DNA of 23,321 bases. It comes from a virus. The notes under the pieces are model-generated. The model was not told the DNA's origin and made no database searches. It was given only the letters and a program-made list of their open reading frames with translations. The translations under genes and the position numbers were made by a program. Positions 2,430 through 23,321 of the stretch are shown piece by piece. Within the stretch, counting starts at the first letter, position 1. Each line of letters opens with the position of its first letter. The DNA lies in the IMG/VR virus record IMGVR_UViG_3300019776_000552, positions 1 to 23,321 of that record; one strand, written 5' to 3'.

Positions 2430-3989
2430 ATGATTGAAAAACAAATTTTATTTGACAAAGATGCAAAAGAAAAGCTCCTTACCGGTGTAAATGCTGTGGC
2501 GGATGCTGTAAAGGTTACGCTTGGGGCGGCCGGAAGGAATGTGGCTATTGAAGATGAGAGAGGCCTTCCTCACTTAACTAAAGATGGTGTTACAGTTGCT
2601 AAGGCAATTACGTTGTCTGACCCGGTTGAGAATTTAGGAGCAAGTATCCTAAAGGAAGCATCGAGTAAAAGCACTGATTTGGCCGGAGATGGAACCACTA
2701 CTACTGCAGTATTAGCTCAGGGAATCATTAATAGAGCGATGCCTCAAGTAAATGAATCAACCAATATTACTTTATTGAAACGTGGTATGGAAGACGCATC
2801 GAAGGATGTCGTAGAGTACTTAGAAAAAAGCAGTAGGAAGGTTAGTAAAAAAGCATTGAAGTATGTTGCGAGCATATCTGCGAATAATGATTCAGAAATA
2901 GGAGGGCTTATATCTAAAGCATATTCTAAAGTTGGAATTAATGGAGAAGTTACAATGGAGGAGAGCTTGGATGGAAGGACATACGTTGAGATTACTGACG
3001 GTGTTAAAATCCGTAAAGGATACACTTCTCCATACTTGATTACTGACCAAGAGAAACAAGAATGTGTATTAGATGAGCCATTGGTGTTTATCTCAGACCA
3101 AAAGATTGACAGTATTGATGAGATTGAGGAAGTATTGAAAGCGGCTATTCAAAATAAAAGAAGTCTATTGATTATTTCTGATATTGATGACAGGGTAATG
3201 AATGTCTTAAATATAAATAAAGCCAAAGGAGTAATCAAAGTAAATGTAGTTTCTCCTGAGGGAATCGGAATTAAGAGATTCGAGCTTTTAGAAGACTTAT
3301 GTGCTTTAACGGGAAGTATCTTGGCTTCTGATGAAACAGGGAATGATTTGTCTGCAGTAGATGGAACTTTCTTGGGTCAGGCTAAAAAATGTATATCTTC
3401 ATCAACTAAGACAATACTTATTGTTGATAAGGCTGAAAATAAAGAGGCAATCGATGGACGTGTTAAAAGTGTAAAGGATTCTATCCTTGAAAGTGAGAAC
3501 AAACACAACTTGTGGCACTATAAAGACCGTCTTGGTAGATTATCAGGAGGTGTGGCTGTAATTCGTGTAGGAGCGAAGAGTGAAGTCGAAATGAAGGAGA
3601 AGAAAGACAGGGTCGATGATGCTATCAAAGCTACTAAGGCTGCTCTTGAAGAAGGTATTATTGCCGGAGGAGGTGTTGCATTGGCTCAGTTCAAAGAACC
3701 ATCGAGAGCAAATGATTATTCTGATTCTTATGAATTAGGGTATCAATCTGTTGTCGAATCTCTTAAAGACCCTTATTTTCAGATTCTAAAAAATGCGTCT
3801 ATTTTAGATTTCGGTATATCAAATACAGAAGATAGAGGTATAAATGTCATTACAGGGTTAGTTGTAGATATGTTTGAAGCAGGAATTATTGATTCTACTA
3901 AGGTAGCAAGAAACGCCGTTGAGAATTCTGTATCTGTAGCTTCATTGTTAATGACTACAGAAGTAACTATAACAAACAAAAGAGCTTAA
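2430..3989 (+). CDS. groEL: Phage-encoded GroEL chaperonin (Hsp60)
   Basis: ATP-driven protein-folding chamber, acting in the cytoplasm with GroES. The 519 residues align along the whole of GroEL, with key positions at nearly E. coli numbering: VTLGAAGRNV (29-38), KDGVTVA with Asp52, AGDGTTTT with Asp87, the RVDDA aspartate (397) and AGGGVAL (412-418). The apical peptide-binding face keeps Tyr198 and Tyr202 (GYTSPYL). It is shorter than host GroEL (about 545 residues) and lacks the GGM-repeat tail. It lies in an operon with a GroES-like gene, but groEL comes first, the reverse of the usual bacterial order. Phage chaperonins are known for some large phages; the likely client is a phage capsid or tail protein (inference). 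Confidence 0.95.
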   Translation: MIEKQILFDKDAKEKLLTGVNAVADAVKVTLGAAGRNVAIEDERGLPHLTKDGVTVAKAITLSDPVENLGASILKEASSKSTDLAGDGTTTTAVLAQGIINRAMPQVNESTNITLLKRGMEDASKDVVEYLEKSSRKVSKKALKYVASISANNDSEIGGLISKAYSKVGINGEVTMEESLDGRTYVEITDGVKIRKGYTSPYLITDQEKQECVLDEPLVFISDQKIDSIDEIEEVLKAAIQNKRSLLIISDIDDRVMNVLNINKAKGVIKVNVVSPEGIGIKRFELLEDLCALTGSILASDETGNDLSAVDGTFLGQAKKCISSSTKTILIVDKAENKEAIDGRVKSVKDSILESENKHNLWHYKDRLGRLSGGVAVIRVGAKSEVEMKEKKDRVDDAIKATKAALEEGIIAGGGVALAQFKEPSRANDYSDSYELGYQSVVESLKDPYFQILKNASILDFGISNTEDRGINVITGLVVDMFEAGIIDSTKVARNAVENSVSVASLLMTTEVTITNKRA

Positions 3990-20290: not shown

Positions 20291-20311
20291 TCTTGACGAG
20301 AATATAAAACT

Positions 20312-20350
20312 AAGGGAGAGGGGATTAAATTCTCCCTCCCTTTTTTATTT
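20312..20350 (+). terminator. Intrinsic terminator after the capsid gene
   Basis: AAGGGAGAGGGG starting at 20312 pairs with TTCTCCCTCCCTT ending at 20342, with one mismatch and some G-T pairs, followed by a T-rich run to 20350. It closes the capsid transcript. Confidence 0.85.
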
Positions 20351-20374
20351 AACATATAAAACCAATTTTTAGAA

Positions 20375-20887
20375 ATGGGAAGAATTAAAGATGAAAGTAA
20401 GTACATTACTAAATCGATATTAACAGGTAATGAAAGACTTATAGGTACTGATGATGATACTCCGGGATTATTAACTAAGAATATCAAGACTTCTGATATT
20501 TTAGATTATGTTTCTGAGAATTTAGAGGATGTAGTTTCAGTTGGAAGTATAAATAGAGACAACTCAATAGAAACTGATTTTGTCGTTACAATTCAAGAGA
20601 CGAACGGATTTGAGTACGATATAAAGACACAAATACACGGAGGAAAAGTTTTTATATCCGGACATGTTTTGAATAATACAGGAGTAAATTTAACAGGTTC
20701 TAATAAGATTTTTGAATTTACAAGTGTAAATTATAACAACTCAGAACAAGTTATGATAGGTTATAAAGAGAATACTTTAGAGTCTATAATTACCCGAATG
20801 AATGGATTATCATTGTTTTTAGAATCAGACCTTGATGACGGAGAATTATTTTATATAGAAAGTTTTTATTTTATAGAAAACATATAA
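20375..20887 (+). CDS. Small appendage protein sharing the fibre N-terminal motif (170 aa)
   Basis: The N-terminus carries TGNERLIGTD (17-26) and TKNIKTSDILDYV (34-46), matching TGNDKWIGSD and TKNFTANLVAEYF of the 930-residue fibre protein. The rest is beta-rich (FDYVS... to ESFYFIENI) and resembles a compact tip. This suggests a head- or tail-attached small fibre that uses the same docking motif (inference). It lies between the terminator of the capsid transcript and the promoter of the tRNA array, with no obvious promoter of its own. Confidence 0.7.
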   Translation: MGRIKDESKYITKSILTGNERLIGTDDDTPGLLTKNIKTSDILDYVSENLEDVVSVGSINRDNSIETDFVVTIQETNGFEYDIKTQIHGGKVFISGHVLNNTGVNLTGSNKIFEFTSVNYNNSEQVMIGYKENTLESIITRMNGLSLFLESDLDDGELFYIESFYFIENI

Positions 20888-20897
20888 TTTTTTTGTT

Positions 20898-20905
20898 TAT
20901 CTTTG
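20898..20905 (+). promoter_or_regulatory. Bacteroidota -7 box (TATCTTTG) of tRNA cassette 1
   Basis: TATCTTTGCA matches TAnnTTTG. The ATG of leader 1 is 36 bases further on, giving a short untranslated leader. The same GTTTATCTTTGCA string occurs at the promoter at 22074. Confidence 0.7.
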
Positions 20906-20941
20906 CACAATAATTAAAGAATTACAAAGAAAAAAATAATA

Positions 20942-21025
20942 ATGATAGCATTAACAATAAATACCAATAGAACGATTGCGATTGTCGGAGGCGATAAGTC
21001 TTCTACGAGGGAATCTATGTGTTGA
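20942..21025 (+). CDS. Leader peptide 1 (27 aa) of the tRNA cassette for A- and G-starting codons
   Basis: ATG at 20942 to TGA at 21023-21025. The peptide begins MIALTINTNRTIAIVGGDK, so residues 5-19 consist only of Thr, Ile, Asn, Arg, Ala, Val, Gly, Asp and Lys. The ten tRNAs that follow the downstream terminator are those for Ala, Lys, Ile, Gly, Asp, Thr, Val, Arg, Met and Asn; every one has at least one codon in this ORF (Met is ATG near the end). The last codons (21007-21024) can pair with the region containing the terminator 5' arm. This is the layout of an amino-acid-biosynthesis attenuator, here placed before tRNA genes. I infer a regulatory leader, not a functional protein. Confidence 0.8.
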   Translation: MIALTINTNRTIAIVGGDKSSTRESMC

Positions 21026-21069
21026 TATTTATGTAAGATATTAAATTGTTCATAACGCATTAATCCCTC
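21007..21069 (+). promoter_or_regulatory. Candidate antiterminator of cassette 1
   Basis: GAGGGA at 21007-21012 pairs with TCCCTC at 21064-21069, the 5' arm of the terminator. ATGTGTTG at 21017-21024 pairs (two G-T) with TAACGCAT at 21053-21060. The two helices stack with a small internal loop and exclude the terminator. The 5' strand covers the last codons and stop of leader 1, so a ribosome finishing the ORF would block it and one stalled earlier would leave it free. Confidence 0.65.
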
Positions 21070-21100
21070 AGAAGTAAAGTTTTGAGGGATTTTTGTTTTT
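21062..21100 (+). terminator. Attenuator terminator of cassette 1
   Basis: AATCCCTCA at 21062-21070 pairs with TGAGGGATT at 21083-21091, followed by a T-rich run to 21100. tRNA-Ala begins at the very next base, so termination here would silence the whole first tRNA block. Confidence 0.85.
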
Positions 21101-21175
21101 GGGGGTACATGTTCCTTTGGCTGGCGAATTGGTTTTGCAAACCGATTGCGGAGAGTTCGAGCCTCTCTACTTCCA
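21101..21175 (+). tRNA. tRNA-Ala (TGC)
   Basis: Acceptor GGGGGTA pairs with TACTTCC (two G-T). The T-arm GAGAG/CTCTC has loop TTCGAGC. The anticodon stem TTGGT/ACCGA has loop TTTGCAA, giving TGC at 21136-21138. The D-arm is short (TTC/GAA). No encoded CCA. Confidence 0.75.
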
Positions 21176-21196
21176 CAATAAAAAATAAATAATAAG

Positions 21197-21232
21197 ATGA
21201 AAAAAGAATTTAAGAAATATAAACAGATATAA
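21197..21232 (+). CDS. Lys-rich mini-leader (11 aa) before tRNA-Lys
   Basis: ATG at 21197 to TAA at 21230-21232 encodes MKKEFKKYKQI, five Lys in eleven residues (codons AAA and AAG). It is followed directly by a 9-bp hairpin and then tRNA-Lys. The match to the next tRNA repeats the logic of the longer leaders at single-tRNA scale. It is very short, and the AT-rich context makes Lys codons likely by chance, so confidence is lower. Confidence 0.5.
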   Translation: MKKEFKKYKQI

Positions 21233-21253
21233 CACCTTCAAGTTTTGAGGGTG
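21233..21253 (+). promoter_or_regulatory. Hairpin between the Lys-rich mini-leader and tRNA-Lys
   Basis: CACCTTCAA at 21233-21241 pairs with TTGAGGGTG at 21245-21253 around GTT. There is no clear T-run, so termination would be weak. The 3' arm (GAGGG at 21247-21251) can instead pair with CCCTC at 21266-21270, inside the tRNA-Lys acceptor strand, so it may be a processing switch and not a terminator. Confidence 0.5.
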
Positions 21254-21264
21254 TGTAATTATAT

Positions 21265-21337
21265 TCCCTCTAAACATTGTTGGTGGATGTAGTAGACTTT
21301 TAATCTACGAAGATAGGTTCGACTCCTATAGGGGGAA
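21265..21337 (+). tRNA. tRNA-Lys (TTT)
   Basis: Acceptor TCCCTCT pairs with AGGGGGA. The D-arm is ACAT/ATGT, the anticodon stem GTAGA/TCTAC has loop CTTTTAA (TTT at 21299-21301), and the T-arm ATAGG/CCTAT has loop TTCGACT. Discriminator A. Confidence 0.9.
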
Positions 21338-21344
21338 CAAAAAT

Positions 21345-21418
21345 AGGCGGGTAATTCAGTCCGGTAGAAAGCAATCCTGATAAGATTGTATGCGTAGGTT
21401 CAAATCCTACTTCGCCTA
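21345..21418 (+). tRNA. tRNA-Ile (GAT)
   Basis: Acceptor AGGCGGG pairs with TTCGCCT. Anticodon stem CAATC/GATTG has loop CTGATAA (GAT at 21379-21381). T-arm GTAGG/CCTAC has loop TTCAAAT. Confidence 0.92.
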
Positions 21419-21427
21419 CAAAATAAT

Positions 21428-21504
21428 GCGACATTCGCATAGTGGTCGATTGCACCTGCCTTCCAAGTAGGAAATCATCGTGAGTTCGAATCTCACATGT
21501 CGCT
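21428..21504 (+). tRNA. tRNA-Gly (TCC)
   Basis: Acceptor GCGACAT pairs perfectly with ATGTCGC. Anticodon stem CCTGC/GTAGG has loop CTTCCAA (TCC at 21462-21464). T-arm GTGAG/CTCAC has loop TTCGAAT. Confidence 0.92.
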
Positions 21505-21550
21505 CAAACAGTTTGTTCGAAAGGTTCTTCTGTAAAAACGAGCCGCTATA

Positions 21551-21626
21551 GGTTGTATGAGCCCCACAGGTCGGGGAATTTGACTGTCACTCATCTAAAA
21601 TGAGGGTTCGAGCCCCTCTGCGACCG
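21551..21626 (+). tRNA. tRNA-Asp (GTC), divergent anticodon stem
   Basis: Acceptor GGTTGTA pairs with TGCGACC over seven pairs. The D-arm is CCCC/GGGG with loop ACAGGTC. The loop CTGTCAC is the usual Asp loop (GTC at 21586-21588). The T-arm is GAGGG/CCCTC with TTCGAGC. Discriminator G fits Asp. The anticodon stem TTTGA/TCATC has only three good pairs. Confidence 0.75.
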
Positions 21627-21635
21627 CTTAAAAAT

Positions 21636-21709
21636 GCCCTCGTAGCTCAATTTGGTAGAGCGCTTCCTTTGTAACGAAGTGGTTGCAGGTTCGATTCCTG
21701 TCGTCGGCT
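21636..21709 (+). tRNA. tRNA-Thr (TGT), imperfect acceptor
   Basis: Loop TTTGTAA gives TGT at 21670-21672. The anticodon stem CTTC/GAAG has an extra C-C next to the loop. T-arm GCAGG/CCTGT has loop TTCGATT. The acceptor GCCCTCG/CGTCGGC has two mismatches in the middle. Confidence 0.8.
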
Positions 21710-21714
21710 CAAAA

Positions 21715-21789
21715 TCCTTGTTAGCTCAGTTGGTTCAGAGCAACTCTTTTACACGGAGAAGGTCGTAAGTTCGAATCTTACACAAGGGA
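21715..21789 (+). tRNA. tRNA-Val (TAC)
   Basis: Acceptor TCCTTGT pairs with ACAAGGG (one T-G). Anticodon stem CTCT/GGAG has loop TTTACAC (TAC at 21750-21752). T-arm GTAAG/CTTAC has loop TTCGAAT. Discriminator A. Confidence 0.85.
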
Positions 21790-21794
21790 CAACC

Positions 21795-21868
21795 GGCCTA
21801 TTAGTTCAGTTGAATAGAACGCTTCCCTTCTAAGGATGATGTCGGAGGTTTGAATCCTTCATAGGTCA
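21795..21868 (+). tRNA. tRNA-Arg (TCT)
   Basis: Acceptor GGCCTAT pairs with ATAGGTC. Loop CTTCTAA gives TCT at 21829-21831, on stem CTTCC/GGATG with one mismatch. T-arm GGAGG/CCTTC has loop TTTGAAT. Confidence 0.87.
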
Positions 21869-21873
21869 CATAT

Positions 21874-21945
21874 CGTTCCGTAGCTCAATGGTGGAGCAAC
21901 GCACTCATAATGCGGAGGCTGAGGGTTCAAGTCCCTTCGGAGCAA
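21874..21945 (+). tRNA. tRNA-Met (CAT), elongator type with C1-A72 mismatch
   Basis: Acceptor CGTTCCG faces CGGAGCA: the first pair is C-A and the other six are good. The D-stem GCTC/GAGC has C11-G24, as in elongators, and the anticodon stem CGCA/TGCG lacks the three G-C pairs of initiators. Loop CTCATAA gives CAT at 21906-21908. T-arm GAGGG/CCCTT. Ile-decoding by a modified CAT cannot be excluded. Confidence 0.82.
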
Positions 21946-21952
21946 CTAATAT

Positions 21953-22026
21953 TTCCCGTTAGCTATAATGGTCAGAGCGGAAGTTTGTTAAACTTAGGGT
22001 TGGTGGTTCGAGTCCATCACGGGGAG
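21953..22026 (+). tRNA. tRNA-Asn (GTT)
   Basis: Acceptor TTCCCGT pairs with ACGGGGA. Stem AAGT/ACTT has loop TTGTTAA (GTT at 21987-21989). T-arm GGTGG/CCATC has loop TTCGAGT. Discriminator G fits Asn. Last tRNA of block 1. Confidence 0.88.
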
Positions 22027-22073
22027 CAAAATAAATATTTTACTTCATAGTAAAAATATTAAAAATAATTGTT

Positions 22074-22081
22074 TATCTTTG
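22074..22081 (+). promoter_or_regulatory. Bacteroidota -7 box (TATCTTTG) placed at a tRNA 5' end
   Basis: TATCTTTG matches TAnnTTTG and ends three bases before the first base of the initiator-like tRNA-Met (22085). Transcription would therefore begin at or next to the mature 5' end. The 17-base string AAAATATTAAAAATAAT at 22053-22069 lies 21 bases upstream, exactly as at the promoter at 22942. Confidence 0.75.
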
Positions 22082-22084
22082 CAG

Positions 22085-22158
22085 AGTGAGATAGAGCAGT
22101 TGGCCAGCTCGTCGGGCTCATAATCCGAAGGTCGGGGGTTCGAATCCCTCTCTCGCTA
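22085..22158 (+). tRNA. tRNA-Met (CAT), initiator-like
   Basis: The stretch GAGCAGTTGG...GCTCGTCGGGCTCATAA is very close to bacterial initiator tRNA. The D-stem is GAGC/GCTC, with the initiator-type A11-T24, and the anticodon stem TCGGG/TCCGA has G29-G31. CAT is at 22119-22121. Unlike true initiators, position 1-72 is an A-T pair (AGTGAGA/TCTCGCT), a weak pair that may still allow formylation. T-arm GGGGG/CCCTC. It stands alone between its promoter and leader 2. Confidence 0.88.
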
Positions 22159-22169
22159 CAAAAGAAATT

Positions 22170-22244
22170 ATGAAAAAAGGTTTAAGTTTATGTTCGTTTA
22201 GTTGGTTGTCGTATTTTAACGGCAAGGGATTTTACGTTCAATAA
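22170..22244 (+). CDS. Leader peptide 2 (24 aa) of the tRNA cassette for T-starting codons
   Basis: ATG at 22170 to TAA at 22242-22244. Residues 5-16 are LSLCSFSWLSYF, twelve in a row drawn only from Leu, Ser, Cys, Phe, Trp and Tyr. The seven tRNAs after the following terminator are Tyr, Phe, Leu(TAA), Ser(TGA), Ser(GCT), Trp and Cys, exactly these six amino acids. Both Ser isoacceptors are sampled (TCG and AGT), Leu mostly by TTA, and there is one TGG and one TGT. Codons 19-21 (AGGGATTT at 22225-22232) can pair with the terminator 5' arm. I infer a regulatory leader for attenuation. Confidence 0.85.
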   Translation: MKKGLSLCSFSWLSYFNGKGFYVQ

Positions 22245-22279
22245 ATTTGTCTTTTTGACATAGTTCGTTCTAAATCCCT
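22225..22279 (+). promoter_or_regulatory. Candidate antiterminator of cassette 2
   Basis: AGGGATTT at 22225-22232, inside leader ORF 2, is perfectly complementary to AAATCCCT at 22272-22279, eight of the nine bases of the terminator 5' arm. ACG at 22234-22236 can add pairs with CGT at 22266-22268. Forming it prevents the terminator. The 5' strand is near the stop codon, where a finishing ribosome would mask it. Confidence 0.7.
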
Positions 22280-22310
22280 ATTCGAAAGTTTAGGGATTTT
22301 TTGTTTTTAT
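22272..22310 (+). terminator. Attenuator terminator of cassette 2
   Basis: AAATCCCTA at 22272-22280 pairs with TAGGGATTT at 22291-22299, followed by a T-rich run to 22309. tRNA-Tyr starts at 22313. Confidence 0.85.
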
Positions 22311-22312
22311 AT

Positions 22313-22395
22313 TGTATTGATGGTAAGTGGGCGAAATCAGCGGTCTGTAAAATCGTCGTCGTTTGGCTATGTAGGTTCGAATCCTACCAATACAA
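22313..22395 (+). tRNA. tRNA-Tyr (GTA)
   Basis: Acceptor TGTATTG pairs perfectly with CAATACA. Stem GCGGT/ATCGT has loop CTGTAAA (GTA at 22347-22349). The variable arm is long, as expected for Tyr. T-arm GTAGG/CCTAC has loop TTCGAAT. Confidence 0.9.
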
Positions 22396-22401
22396 CATAA
22401 T

Positions 22402-22472
22402 GGATTCATAGCTGAGGGGTTTAGCGCACGGTTGAAGCCCGTGAGACGTTGGGTCGACTCCAACTGATTCCA
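22402..22472 (+). tRNA. tRNA-Phe (GAA)
   Basis: Acceptor GGATTCA pairs with TGATTCC, with one T-T mismatch. Stem CACGG/CCGTG has loop TTGAAGC (GAA at 22434-22436). T-arm GTTGG/CCAAC has the atypical loop GTCGACT. Confidence 0.85.
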
Positions 22473-22477
22473 CAAAT

Positions 22478-22552
22478 ACCTTCTTAGCCCAAATGGAAGA
22501 GGCATCGGGCTTAAAACTCGTGCAGGTGTGAGTTCGAATCTCACAGGAGGTA
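22478..22552 (+). tRNA. tRNA-Leu (TAA) with a short variable loop
   Basis: Acceptor ACCTTCT pairs with AGGAGGT. Stem CGGG/CTCG has loop CTTAAAA (TAA at 22512-22514). T-arm GTGAG/CTCAC has loop TTCGAAT. Only six bases (GCAGGT) lie between anticodon and T stems, whereas bacterial Leu tRNAs normally have a long variable arm. Confidence 0.8.
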
Positions 22553-22558
22553 CAAAAT

Positions 22559-22648
22559 AGAGATGCGTAATGCTGGCGTACTTATCGGTCTTGAAAACCG
22601 TGATGTCGGGGACAACCTGACGTGCAGGTTCGAACCCTGTCATCTCTG
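22559..22648 (+). tRNA. tRNA-Ser (TGA)
   Basis: Acceptor AGAGATG pairs perfectly with CATCTCT. Stem CGGT/ACCG has loop CTTGAAA (TGA at 22592-22594). It has a long variable arm, T-arm GCAGG/CCTGT and discriminator G. Confidence 0.92.
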
Positions 22649-22654
22649 CAATAT

Positions 22655-22738
22655 GGAAAGTAAACCTGTCGTGGGACGGGAACCGGTTGCTAACCGAATT
22701 GAAGGTAACACTTTGGGAATCGTGCTCTCTGCTTTCCG
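22655..22738 (+). tRNA. tRNA-Ser (GCT), divergent T-arm
   Basis: Acceptor GGAAAGT pairs with GCTTTCC; discriminator G. Loop TTGCTAA gives GCT at 22689-22691, with stem CGG/CCG only. It has a long variable arm. The T-arm GGGA/TCTC has loop ATCGTGC in place of TTCGANY, so it is a degenerate but plausible Ser tRNA. Confidence 0.7.
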
Positions 22739-22742
22739 CAAT

Positions 22743-22813
22743 GCGTCTCAGCGTAGGCTGTGTCGGTTGGTCTCCAAAACCAATCCGTGAAGGTTCGAAT
22801 CCTTCGGGATGCG
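22743..22813 (+). tRNA. tRNA-Trp (CCA)
   Basis: Acceptor GCGTCTC pairs with GGGATGC (two G-T). Stem TTGGT/ACCAA has loop CTCCAAA (CCA at 22774-22776). T-arm GAAGG/CCTTC has loop TTCGAAT. Discriminator G fits Trp. Confidence 0.9.
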
Positions 22814-22817
22814 CTAT

Positions 22818-22892
22818 GACTTCTTTGCTAATGTTGGGTATAGGCGATAGTCTGCAAAACTAAAAACATCGGTTCGATTCCGATAGAAGTCT
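22818..22892 (+). tRNA. tRNA-Cys (GCA)
   Basis: Acceptor GACTTCT pairs perfectly with AGAAGTC. Stem TAGT/ACTA has loop CTGCAAA (GCA at 22854-22856). T-arm ATCGG/CCGAT has loop TTCGATT. Discriminator T fits Cys. Last tRNA of block 2. Confidence 0.9.
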
Positions 22893-22920
22893 CAAAATAA
22901 AAATATTTTTAATTTATGTG

Positions 22921-22949
22921 AAAATATTAAAAATAATGTTATATATTTG
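22921..22949 (+). promoter_or_regulatory. Promoter of tRNA cassette 3
   Basis: The -7 box TATATTTG is at 22942-22949. AAAATATTAAAAATAAT at 22921-22937 repeats the string upstream of the promoter at 22074 with the same 21-base spacing. The leader 3 ATG is only five bases after the box, so this leader would be leaderless or nearly so. Confidence 0.75.
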
Positions 22950-22953
22950 CACC

Positions 22954-23025
22954 ATGAAAAATTTAGTACTTCATACACAACGTCTTCAAGAGCCGGAATT
23001 TACTTCGGGAGGAATGAGTGTGTGA
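22954..23025 (+). CDS. Leader peptide 3 (23 aa) of the tRNA cassette for C-starting codons
   Basis: ATG at 22954 to TGA at 23023-23025. Residues 4-15 are LVLHTQRLQEPE; the codons are mostly C-starting (CTT, CAT, CAA, CGT, CTT, CAA, CCG) plus GAG and GAA. After the following terminator the first two tRNAs are Pro and Glu, both represented; the window then ends. The shape (leader L-x-[IL]-[NH]-T-[NQ]-R near the N-terminus, Met near the end) resembles leader 1. CGGGAGG near its end can pair with the terminator 5' arm. I infer the same attenuation system. Confidence 0.78.
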   Translation: MKNLVLHTQRLQEPEFTSGGMSV

Positions 23026-23068
23026 ATATGTTAAAATAATATATTTTGTCATTGCTTTGAGCCTTCCG
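23006..23068 (+). promoter_or_regulatory. Candidate antiterminator of cassette 3
   Basis: CGGGAGG at 23006-23012 pairs (one G-T) with CCTTCCG at 23062-23068, which is nearly the whole terminator 5' arm. AATGA at 23013-23017 could extend it to TCATT at 23049-23053 across a bulge. Same geometry as in cassettes 1 and 2. Confidence 0.6.
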
Positions 23069-23090
23069 TAATTGGGAGGCTTTTTTATTT
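23061..23090 (+). terminator. Attenuator terminator of cassette 3
   Basis: GCCTTCC at 23061-23067 pairs with GGGAGGC at 23074-23080, followed by TTTTTTATTT to 23090. tRNA-Pro begins at the next base. Confidence 0.87.
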
Positions 23091-23164
23091 AAGGGTGTTA
23101 TGCAGAGGCTATACAACGTAATTTTGGAAATTACGGTTCGCAGGTTCGAATCCTGTTGCCCTTA
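23091..23164 (+). tRNA. tRNA-Pro (TGG)
   Basis: Acceptor AAGGGTG pairs with TGCCCTT. Stem GTAAT/ATTAC has loop TTTGGAA (TGG at 23125-23127). T-arm GCAGG/CCTGT has loop TTCGAAT. The D-arm is weak. Confidence 0.87.
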
Positions 23165-23173
23165 CTAACTTTT

Positions 23174-23248
23174 ACCGGTTTCGTCTAATTGGAATAGGAT
23201 GATTGGCTTTCAACTAATGTGATGCGGGTTCGAGTCCCGTAGCCGGTA
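23174..23248 (+). tRNA. tRNA-Glu (TTC)
   Basis: Acceptor ACCGGTT pairs with AGCCGGT. Stem ATTGG/CTAAT has loop CTTTCAA (TTC at 23219-23221). T-arm GCGGG/CCCGT has loop TTCGAGT. Confidence 0.92.
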
Positions 23249-23262
23249 CAAAATTTAAAACT

Positions 23263-23321
23263 ATGAAGACTAAAATTGATTATGTTCAGAGTAGCCTAAG
23301 TAACATTGGGCTATGGTATAA
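23263..23321 (+). CDS. Open frame starting after tRNA-Glu, cut by the window end
   Basis: ATG at 23263 opens MKTKIDYVQSSLSNIGLWY and is still open at the last base. It starts 14 bases after a tRNA, like the leader ORF at 22170, so it could be a further leader (Ser, Leu and Ile are frequent) or the first gene after the array. No promoter box is seen directly before it. Too little is visible to decide. Confidence 0.35.
   Translation, partial: MKTKIDYVQSSLSNIGLWY

Follow-up and report, generated by a model that had tools for sequence, protein, structure and literature searches.

Candidate transcription attenuators with codon-matched leader peptides ahead of phage tRNA genes

Introduction

Leader-peptide attenuators control amino-acid operons such as trp, his, thr, ilvGMEDA, leu and pheA. 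Those of ilvGMEDA and thr respond to two or three amino acids, and in E. coli the phenylalanyl-tRNA synthetase operon pheST is also controlled by a leader-peptide attenuator. Here, we analyzed a virus record of 23,321 bases (IMG/VR record IMGVR_UViG_3300019776_000552, positions 1 to 23,321; hereafter, the window), which belongs to a tailed phage and carries an array of tRNA genes downstream of the structural genes. The array is divided in three units (20942-23249), each made of a leader open reading frame (ORF) of 23-27 codons, an intrinsic terminator, and a block of tRNA genes. The leaders contain a run of residues, the matched run, drawn largely from the amino acids of the tRNAs encoded behind the terminator. 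Very probably, each unit is a ribosome-mediated transcription attenuator that senses the decoding speed of the codons read by its own tRNAs.

Like the attenuators of amino-acid operons, these units have a short leader rich in regulatory codons, an intrinsic terminator, an antiterminator, and a stall-dependent read-through, which is here predicted. Unlike them, they are found in phages, precede tRNA genes instead of biosynthesis genes, and cover up to ten amino acids per leader, with a product, tRNA, that would directly relieve the stall. The pheST attenuator is similar in that a leader peptide governs the tRNA charging machinery, but it controls the synthetase of one amino acid and not tRNA genes. 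T-box riboswitches also tie a terminator/antiterminator switch to the status of tRNA, but they bind uncharged tRNA directly and need no leader ORF; Rfam gave no T-box match in 20300-23321 (E<=1). The Rfam models His_leader and Phe_leader scored 26.4 and 26.5 bits, below their gathering thresholds of 49 and 55. The switch itself is the classic attenuator and is old; the novelty lies in what it controls, in how many amino acids one leader covers, and in its setting.

The presence of tRNA genes in phages has been a matter of debate for decades, and little is known of their expression. Phage tRNA arrays have been read as codon compensation or as an escape from tRNA-cleaving defences (eLife 2023 e85183, PMC10264068; Nat Commun 2024, PMC11555353). 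In the parts of these papers available to us, the arrays have the same kind of tRNA genes and a plausible need for them, but regulation of tRNA genes by their own codons does not appear; the words attenuation, leader peptide, and terminator are absent from the available text of PMC10264068. A word search of papers on phage tRNAs, viral tRNA modification, or huge phages, as far as their text was accessible, retrieved no such control either. The first-pass annotation of this DNA, made from the sequence alone, knew of no described system of this kind, and we found no description of leader-peptide control of tRNA genes in the open-licence full-text literature, although a report outside it may exist. 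The leaders would be a sequence-readable statement of which shortage each group of tRNAs answers. They open direct tests of which tRNAs run out, in which hosts, and of whether tRNA-cleaving defences trigger the switch. Leader-peptide attenuation would thereby be extended to tRNA genes, with as many as ten amino acids sensed by one leader, in cultured phages open to experiment.

Results

Leader peptides of the window match the tRNAs behind them

The first-pass annotation had described three successions of promoter, short ORF, terminator, and tRNA block. We recovered all three (Table 1), and ARAGORN and Rfam called the tRNAs of the array where it had placed them, tRNA-Ser(GCT) of block 2 being called only at a looser ARAGORN threshold. 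It had also noted runs of residues restricted to the amino acids of the downstream tRNAs, which holds for leaders 1 and 2. In leader 1, all 15 residues of TINTNRTIAIVGGDK fall within the set of block 1 (Ala, Lys, Ile, Gly, Asp, Thr, Val, Arg, Met, Asn). In leader 2, the 12 residues of LSLCSFSWLSYF all fall within the set of block 2 (Tyr, Phe, Leu, Ser, Ser, Trp, Cys) and cover it entirely. The leader residues before and after the matched runs are not limited to these sets. Block 3 is interrupted by the end of the window after Pro and Glu. From its leader (HTQRLQEPE), one expects Gln, His, Leu(CTN), and Arg(CGN) beyond this point, and exactly these are carried by the relative L246/L679; block 3 of the relatives goes on with Gln, His, Leu(TAG), and Arg(ACG). 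The Thr beside His in this leader (HTQ codons, 22972-22980) is kept in four of the five relatives examined, and the tRNA-Thr gene is in block 1.

The claim of one promoter per unit stands in part. Bacteroidota-type -7 boxes (TAnnTTTG) were found at 20898, 22074, and 22942, ahead of unit 1, of the initiator-like tRNA-Met (tRNA-fMet) preceding unit 2, and of unit 3, respectively. The second box directly precedes tRNA-fMet, with no attenuator between them, and the tRNA-fMet transcript also carries leader 2, further downstream. The layout of tRNA-fMet is the same in the relative L679 (minus strand, 2534-2606). It fits the proposed role of the leaders, since a leader cannot report on the tRNA needed for its own start.

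A fourth mini-unit, which the first-pass annotation had placed before tRNA-Lys, is not supported as an attenuator. The hairpin behind its K-rich ORF (21197-21256) is not followed by a T-run. A K-rich ORF also occurs at this position in L679, but the ORF found there in Cellulophaga phage phi4:1 is not K-rich, and phage phi40:1 has none.

Leader composition tracks tRNA identity across units

To assess the generality of the match, we collected loci by four pattern scans of IMG/VR for a T-run closely preceding tRNA-Tyr, Ala, Lys, or Asn, a choice blind to the leaders. Our detector takes a terminator, the ORFs ending ahead of it, and the tRNA block behind it, and scores the adherence of the ORF to the amino acids of the block. 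The set comprised 170 non-redundant terminator-plus-tRNA units, including the window and three Cellulophaga phage loci. The summed score was 1316, against 821 (standard deviation, SD, 28.6) when blocks were shuffled, and none of 2000 shuffles attained 1316. Scores of at least 15 were obtained by 22 units (0.75 in shuffles), and omitting the window removes one of these. When only units with canonical geometry were kept (116 units), the score was 1037.9 against 486.7 (SD 24.3), 30 units instead of 1.42 scored at least 12, and the true block ranked top among the 116 for 25 of 38 leaders. The proposed dependence of leader composition on downstream tRNA identity is thus far above shuffled pairings. 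A cellular sample, comprising 111 contigs retrieved by the Tyr pattern and only 22 scoreable units, gave no signal (92.2 against 93.6, SD 6.7).

Among the 47 leaders selected by score, 597 of the 623 residues of the matched runs are in the set of the block and 43 leaders contain every amino acid of their block. The match is specific to the frame: it is found in the ORF frame of 47/47 leaders, and in 0/47 when this DNA is read in the two remaining frames or on the reverse strand. The codon box of Arg agrees with the isoacceptor encoded downstream in 16 of 18 cases (permutation p 0.004).

One could argue that the terminators merely insulate tRNA blocks from upstream transcription, the short ORFs being there by chance or as unrelated small genes. 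Terminators before tRNA genes without a matched ORF are indeed common, with only 28 of the 170 units scoring at least 12. We nevertheless give this explanation hardly any credence, as it is contradicted by the pairing statistics, the frame control, and the antiterminators and co-variation described below.

Matched leaders occur in related and unrelated phages

The leader ORFs are open in related and unrelated phages, as the first-pass annotation would have it. The tRNA arrays of the cultured Cellulophaga phages phi4:1 and phi40:1 have three units each, with peptides that differ from those of the window. In phi4:1, QRLHLQELEQP precedes Pro, Glu, Gln, His, Leu, Leu, and Arg(ACG); TKTGITVIDKTKGARA precedes Ala, Lys, Ile, Gly, Met, Asp, Thr, Val, Arg(TCT), and Met; and NYCTYNNSNWSFSY, which has one Thr outside the set, precedes Tyr, Ser, Ser, Asn, Trp, Phe, and one more gene. 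The latter was given no type by ARAGORN and is Cys by eye. In phi40:1, LLHQEPLEQLRLP, YNNFSWYSNCSFSSYN, and MNIATDIRTKGVK stand ahead of the corresponding blocks. Phage phi17:2 repeats the arrangement of phi4:1, and phi38:1 has the gene order of phi40:1. A few of these leader ORFs have been deposited, only as hypothetical proteins.

The arrangement is also found in dozens of IMG/VR contigs. For example, RQHTWFTFTQCPF precedes Pro, Cys, Thr, Phe, Trp, Gln, His, and Arg in one locus, QNHQWDNCEQNH precedes Trp, Cys, Glu, Gln, His, Asn, and Asp in another, and shorter blocks follow TNTVNINVITITNCVN (Asn, Ile, Val, Cys, Thr) and YNAYQQYNQNQNQ (Asn, Tyr, Gln). In the 642-kb record LR756502, from an uncultured phage, MTTSFQQQQQQQINRTD, with seven Gln codons, precedes four tRNA-Gln genes, and in LR745206 MTTTQQIQQQQINQTD precedes three. 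More generally, huge-phage records of 634-735 kb carry leaders (L713 19416-19531, L713 39354, L714 19887, L712 32525), including poly-Gln before tRNA-Gln clusters.

Upstream of the 47 leaders, a TAnnTTTG box is found in 21 cases (2.0 in shuffles), an indication of Bacteroidota hosts. Four contigs (L685, L699, L090, L686) have matched or likely matched leaders without this box, and two of them, L685 and L699, have sigma-70-like sequences instead. As these replace TAnnTTTG in some contigs, this kind of leader may extend past one phylum.

The detector found no matched leader in Flavobacterium phage immuto, Prevotella phage Lak-C1, or the crAss-like phage cr8_1. We also considered that synteny might place arrays near relatives of the major capsid protein of the window. 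The 80 IMG/VR loci with such relatives (L002-L081, at most 68% identical in the best segment) had no tRNAs nearby, and their longer contigs gave a tRNA match in 1 of 36. The expectation was rejected: the array is patchily distributed. Matches of the tRNA DNA to phages by BLAST were mostly unspecific.

Leaders and tRNA genes vary together

The loci L679, L722, L724, and L725 are relatives of the window, with terminases about 40% identical where found. Their leader 1 reads NNIKTIARVGDN in L679, NIIKTIARVGDN in L724, and INTINMIARVGDN in L722. There is neither a tRNA-Lys in the block nor a Lys in the matched run of L721/L722, whereas L679 and L724 have both; no tRNA-Lys is among the ARAGORN-typed tRNAs of the two tRNA regions of the 75.7-kb contig of L722. 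When the tRNA-Asn gene belongs to block 1 (window, L679), the Asn codons are in leader 1; when it belongs to block 2 (phi4:1 and phi40:1), they are mainly in leader 2, although phi40:1 has one Asn in leader 1 too. Arg follows the isoacceptor in the matched runs of the window family, with AGA before tRNA-Arg(TCT) and CGN before tRNA-Arg(ACG). L694 lacks both Ala and tRNA-Ala, which L692 and L693 have. In another family, Pro and His are present in leader and block alike in L690 and absent from both in L695. A Gln in the leader of L690 (in full, L106) foretold a tRNA-Gln that was found beyond the cut first locus. Hence, residues and tRNA genes are gained and lost together within a family, the co-variation that the first-pass annotation had looked to relatives for.

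The leader looks as if its first half were kept as codons and its second half as RNA, because the tail of leader 2 in L725 has changed as a peptide (KYDTGF to YTVRDRY) with the antiterminator core CGGGAT unchanged, and because leader 3 of L722 has a compensatory change (GGGTGG facing CCACTC, against GGGAGG facing CCTTCC in relatives).

Antiterminator geometry and proposed mechanism

In the window family, the codons right behind the matched run are complementary to the 5' arm of the terminator in all 14 leaders examined. Among 40 leaders from several families, this complementarity exceeds that of dinucleotide shuffles in 32 (p<=0.05). The most complementary strand begins at a median distance of 5 nt downstream of the matched run and extends to near the stop codon, itself 18-31 nt ahead of the terminator in 35 of the 40. 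We then folded the leaders assuming a ribosome edge of 14 nt. Before the 3' arm exists, the 5' arm is predicted to pair with the antiterminator strand with a mean probability of 0.69 when the ribosome is stalled in the run and of 0.10 when it is at the stop codon. For a mid-run stall, the 5' arm is paired upstream with a mean probability of 0.74, against 0.46 in shuffles (33 of 47 leaders at the 5% level), and the three leaders of the window are all predicted to fold with the antiterminator in this way. The units thus combine a short ORF enriched in given codons, a terminator before the genes, and, as base-pairing potential, an antiterminator behind the regulatory codons. The downstream genes, which are tRNAs for the sensed amino acids, would relieve the sensed shortage.

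These features suggest the following mechanism. RNA polymerase would start at the promoter and a ribosome would translate the leader. With plentiful cognate charged tRNAs, the ribosome would reach the stop codon and cover the antiterminator strand, the terminator would form, and the tRNAs would not be made. If any one cognate tRNA were scarce, the ribosome would stall in the matched run, the antiterminator strand would pair with the 5' arm, and the polymerase would enter the tRNA block. The new tRNAs would quicken leader translation and close the loop, and one leader may report on up to ten amino acids together. Matched composition, with its generality and its restriction to the ORF frame, as well as geometry, co-variation, and pairing potential are properties of the DNA itself, from which we infer leader translation, read-through upon stalling, loss of charged tRNA as the signal, and the cause of the shortage. 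The earlier suggestion that leader-peptide attenuation controls the tRNA genes themselves is supported by the shuffle tests, the co-variation, and the antiterminator complementarity, the last being absent from that annotation, and the units would be expected to switch during infection.

The leader composition alone is compatible with the opposite sign, where smooth translation of the leader promotes read-through and tRNAs are made when decoding is good, in a feed-forward manner. This is very unlikely given that the antiterminator follows the matched run, within reach of a ribosome at the stop codon, and given the difference in arm pairing between the two ribosome positions. Even less probable, in our view, is a translational coupling without attenuation, in which the leader ORF stabilises the tRNA precursor, helps to process it, or acts as a decoy consuming tRNAs. 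Since leader 2 of the window shares the transcript of tRNA-fMet, some form of precursor processing is involved, but such coupling accounts neither for the terminator that separates the ORF from the tRNAs, nor for the complementary strand that the ORF contains, nor for the narrow spacing of the stop codon.

Several observations weigh against stall-dependent attenuation. Some residues of the matched runs fall outside the set, e.g., Thr in HTQR of leader 3, and most of the terminator-plus-tRNA units surveyed have no clearly matched leader. Codon-level matching was also evaluated for Leu and Ser, where the agreement of the codon boxes is weak and not significant (p 0.17 and 0.33). Where a leader has just one codon for each amino acid, a sufficiently long stall would depend on a single hungry codon. 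When the stall is at the very last matched codon, the predicted exposure is 0.42 against 0.36 in shuffles (p 0.06). Finally, in the stalled full-length RNA the terminator usually remains the thermodynamically favoured structure (median probability 0.90). As the full RNA mostly prefers the terminator, antitermination would have to win by forming first, i.e., by a kinetic decision.

A different question is what the attenuator senses. Known leader-peptide attenuators respond to amino-acid supply, and a stall cannot distinguish a missing tRNA from an uncharged one. The signal might thus be general amino-acid starvation and not the loss of host tRNA, the tRNA response being a by-product of a starvation sensor. 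We consider this rather unlikely: the genes switched on would be tRNAs, which supply no amino acids, and Arg codon boxes follow the isoacceptor, which sensing of amino acids alone does not require. We tentatively put forward a broader interpretation, to which we give somewhat less than an even chance. Codon-matched leaders would be a widespread viral counter-defence sensor in phages of Bacteroidota, and probably of other hosts too, detecting tRNAs destroyed or depleted, for example, by anticodon nucleases and switching on the matching tRNA operon alone, as a codon-resolved tRNA homeostat. We propose it because some phages escape tRNA-cleaving defences by making tRNAs, according to the parts available to us of published work (PMC10264068, PMC11555353).

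The window phage and features of the array

The PHROGs matches of the window include GroEL, endolysin, terminase, portal, and a virion structural protein. The best match of the terminase (60.5%) is an uncultured Manatee Spring phage recorded as a podovirus, followed by Maribacter and Flavobacterium phages (~41%), with Cellulophaga phages also among the matches. Given these terminase matches, the host is probably a member of Bacteroidota. The GroEL chaperonin gene is full-length (2430-3989, PHROG 5725).

Table 1. Positions of the features of the tRNA array in the window
Feature	Positions	Strand	Basis or remark
-7 box TATCTTTG, Bacteroidota-type, putative promoter of unit 1	20898-20905	+	sequence
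Leader ORF 1, MIALTINTNRTIAIVGGDKSSTRESMC	20942-21025	+	sequence; homologous leaders in L679, L722, L724
Matched run of leader 1, TINTNRTIAIVGGDK	20954-20998	+	inside ORF 1
Antiterminator strand 1, CTTCTACGAGGGAA	21000-21013	+	base-pairing prediction; within ORF 1, complementary to 5' arm of terminator 1
Intrinsic terminator 1 (21062-21091), with T-rich tail	21062-21099	+	hairpin
tRNA-Ala(TGC), divergent	21103-21175	+	Rfam, 20.4 bits, cut-off 29
K-rich mini ORF, MKKEFKKYKQI	21197-21232	+	hairpin follows (to about 21256), before tRNA-Lys
Rest of tRNA block 1: Lys, Ile, Gly, Asp, Thr, Val, Arg(TCT), Met, Asn	21265-22027	+	ARAGORN, Rfam
-7 box TATCTTTG (22074-22081) and initiator-like tRNA-Met (22085-22159)	22074-22159	+	ARAGORN, Rfam
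Leader ORF 2, MKKGLSLCSFSWLSYFNGKGFYVQ	22170-22244	+	homologues in L679, L722, L724, L725
Matched run of leader 2, LSLCSFSWLSYF	22182-22217	+	inside ORF 2
Antiterminator strand 2, AAGGGATTTT	22224-22233	+	base-pairing prediction; within ORF 2
Intrinsic terminator 2 (22272-22299), with T-rich tail	22272-22303	+	hairpin
tRNA block 2: Tyr, Phe, Leu(TAA), Ser(TGA), Ser(GCT), Trp, Cys	22313-22893	+	ARAGORN, Rfam
-7 box TATATTTG, Bacteroidota-type, putative promoter of unit 3	22942-22949	+	sequence
Leader ORF 3, MKNLVLHTQRLQEPEFTSGGMSV	22954-23025	+	homologues in L679, L722, L724, L725
Matched run of leader 3, LHTQRLQEPE	22969-22998	+	Thr outside expected set
Antiterminator strand 3, TCGGGAGGA	23005-23013	+	base-pairing prediction; within ORF 3
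Intrinsic terminator 3 (23059-23082), with T-rich tail	23059-23088	+	hairpin
tRNA block 3: Pro, Glu	23091-23249	+	ARAGORN, Rfam; interrupted by window end

The tRNA-Ala of block 1 is divergent, and Ala is the first tRNA of the homologous block in phi4:1, L679, L722, and L724. In the window family, the first tRNA behind the terminator is always Ala, Tyr, or Pro. In the three operons (21103-23249; also in L679, L722, L085, and L083), the tRNAs are grouped largely according to the first codon letter that they read: A- or G-first, T-first (plus Ser-GCT), and C-first (plus Glu). The third base of the anticodon also governs the modification of position 37, which might matter.

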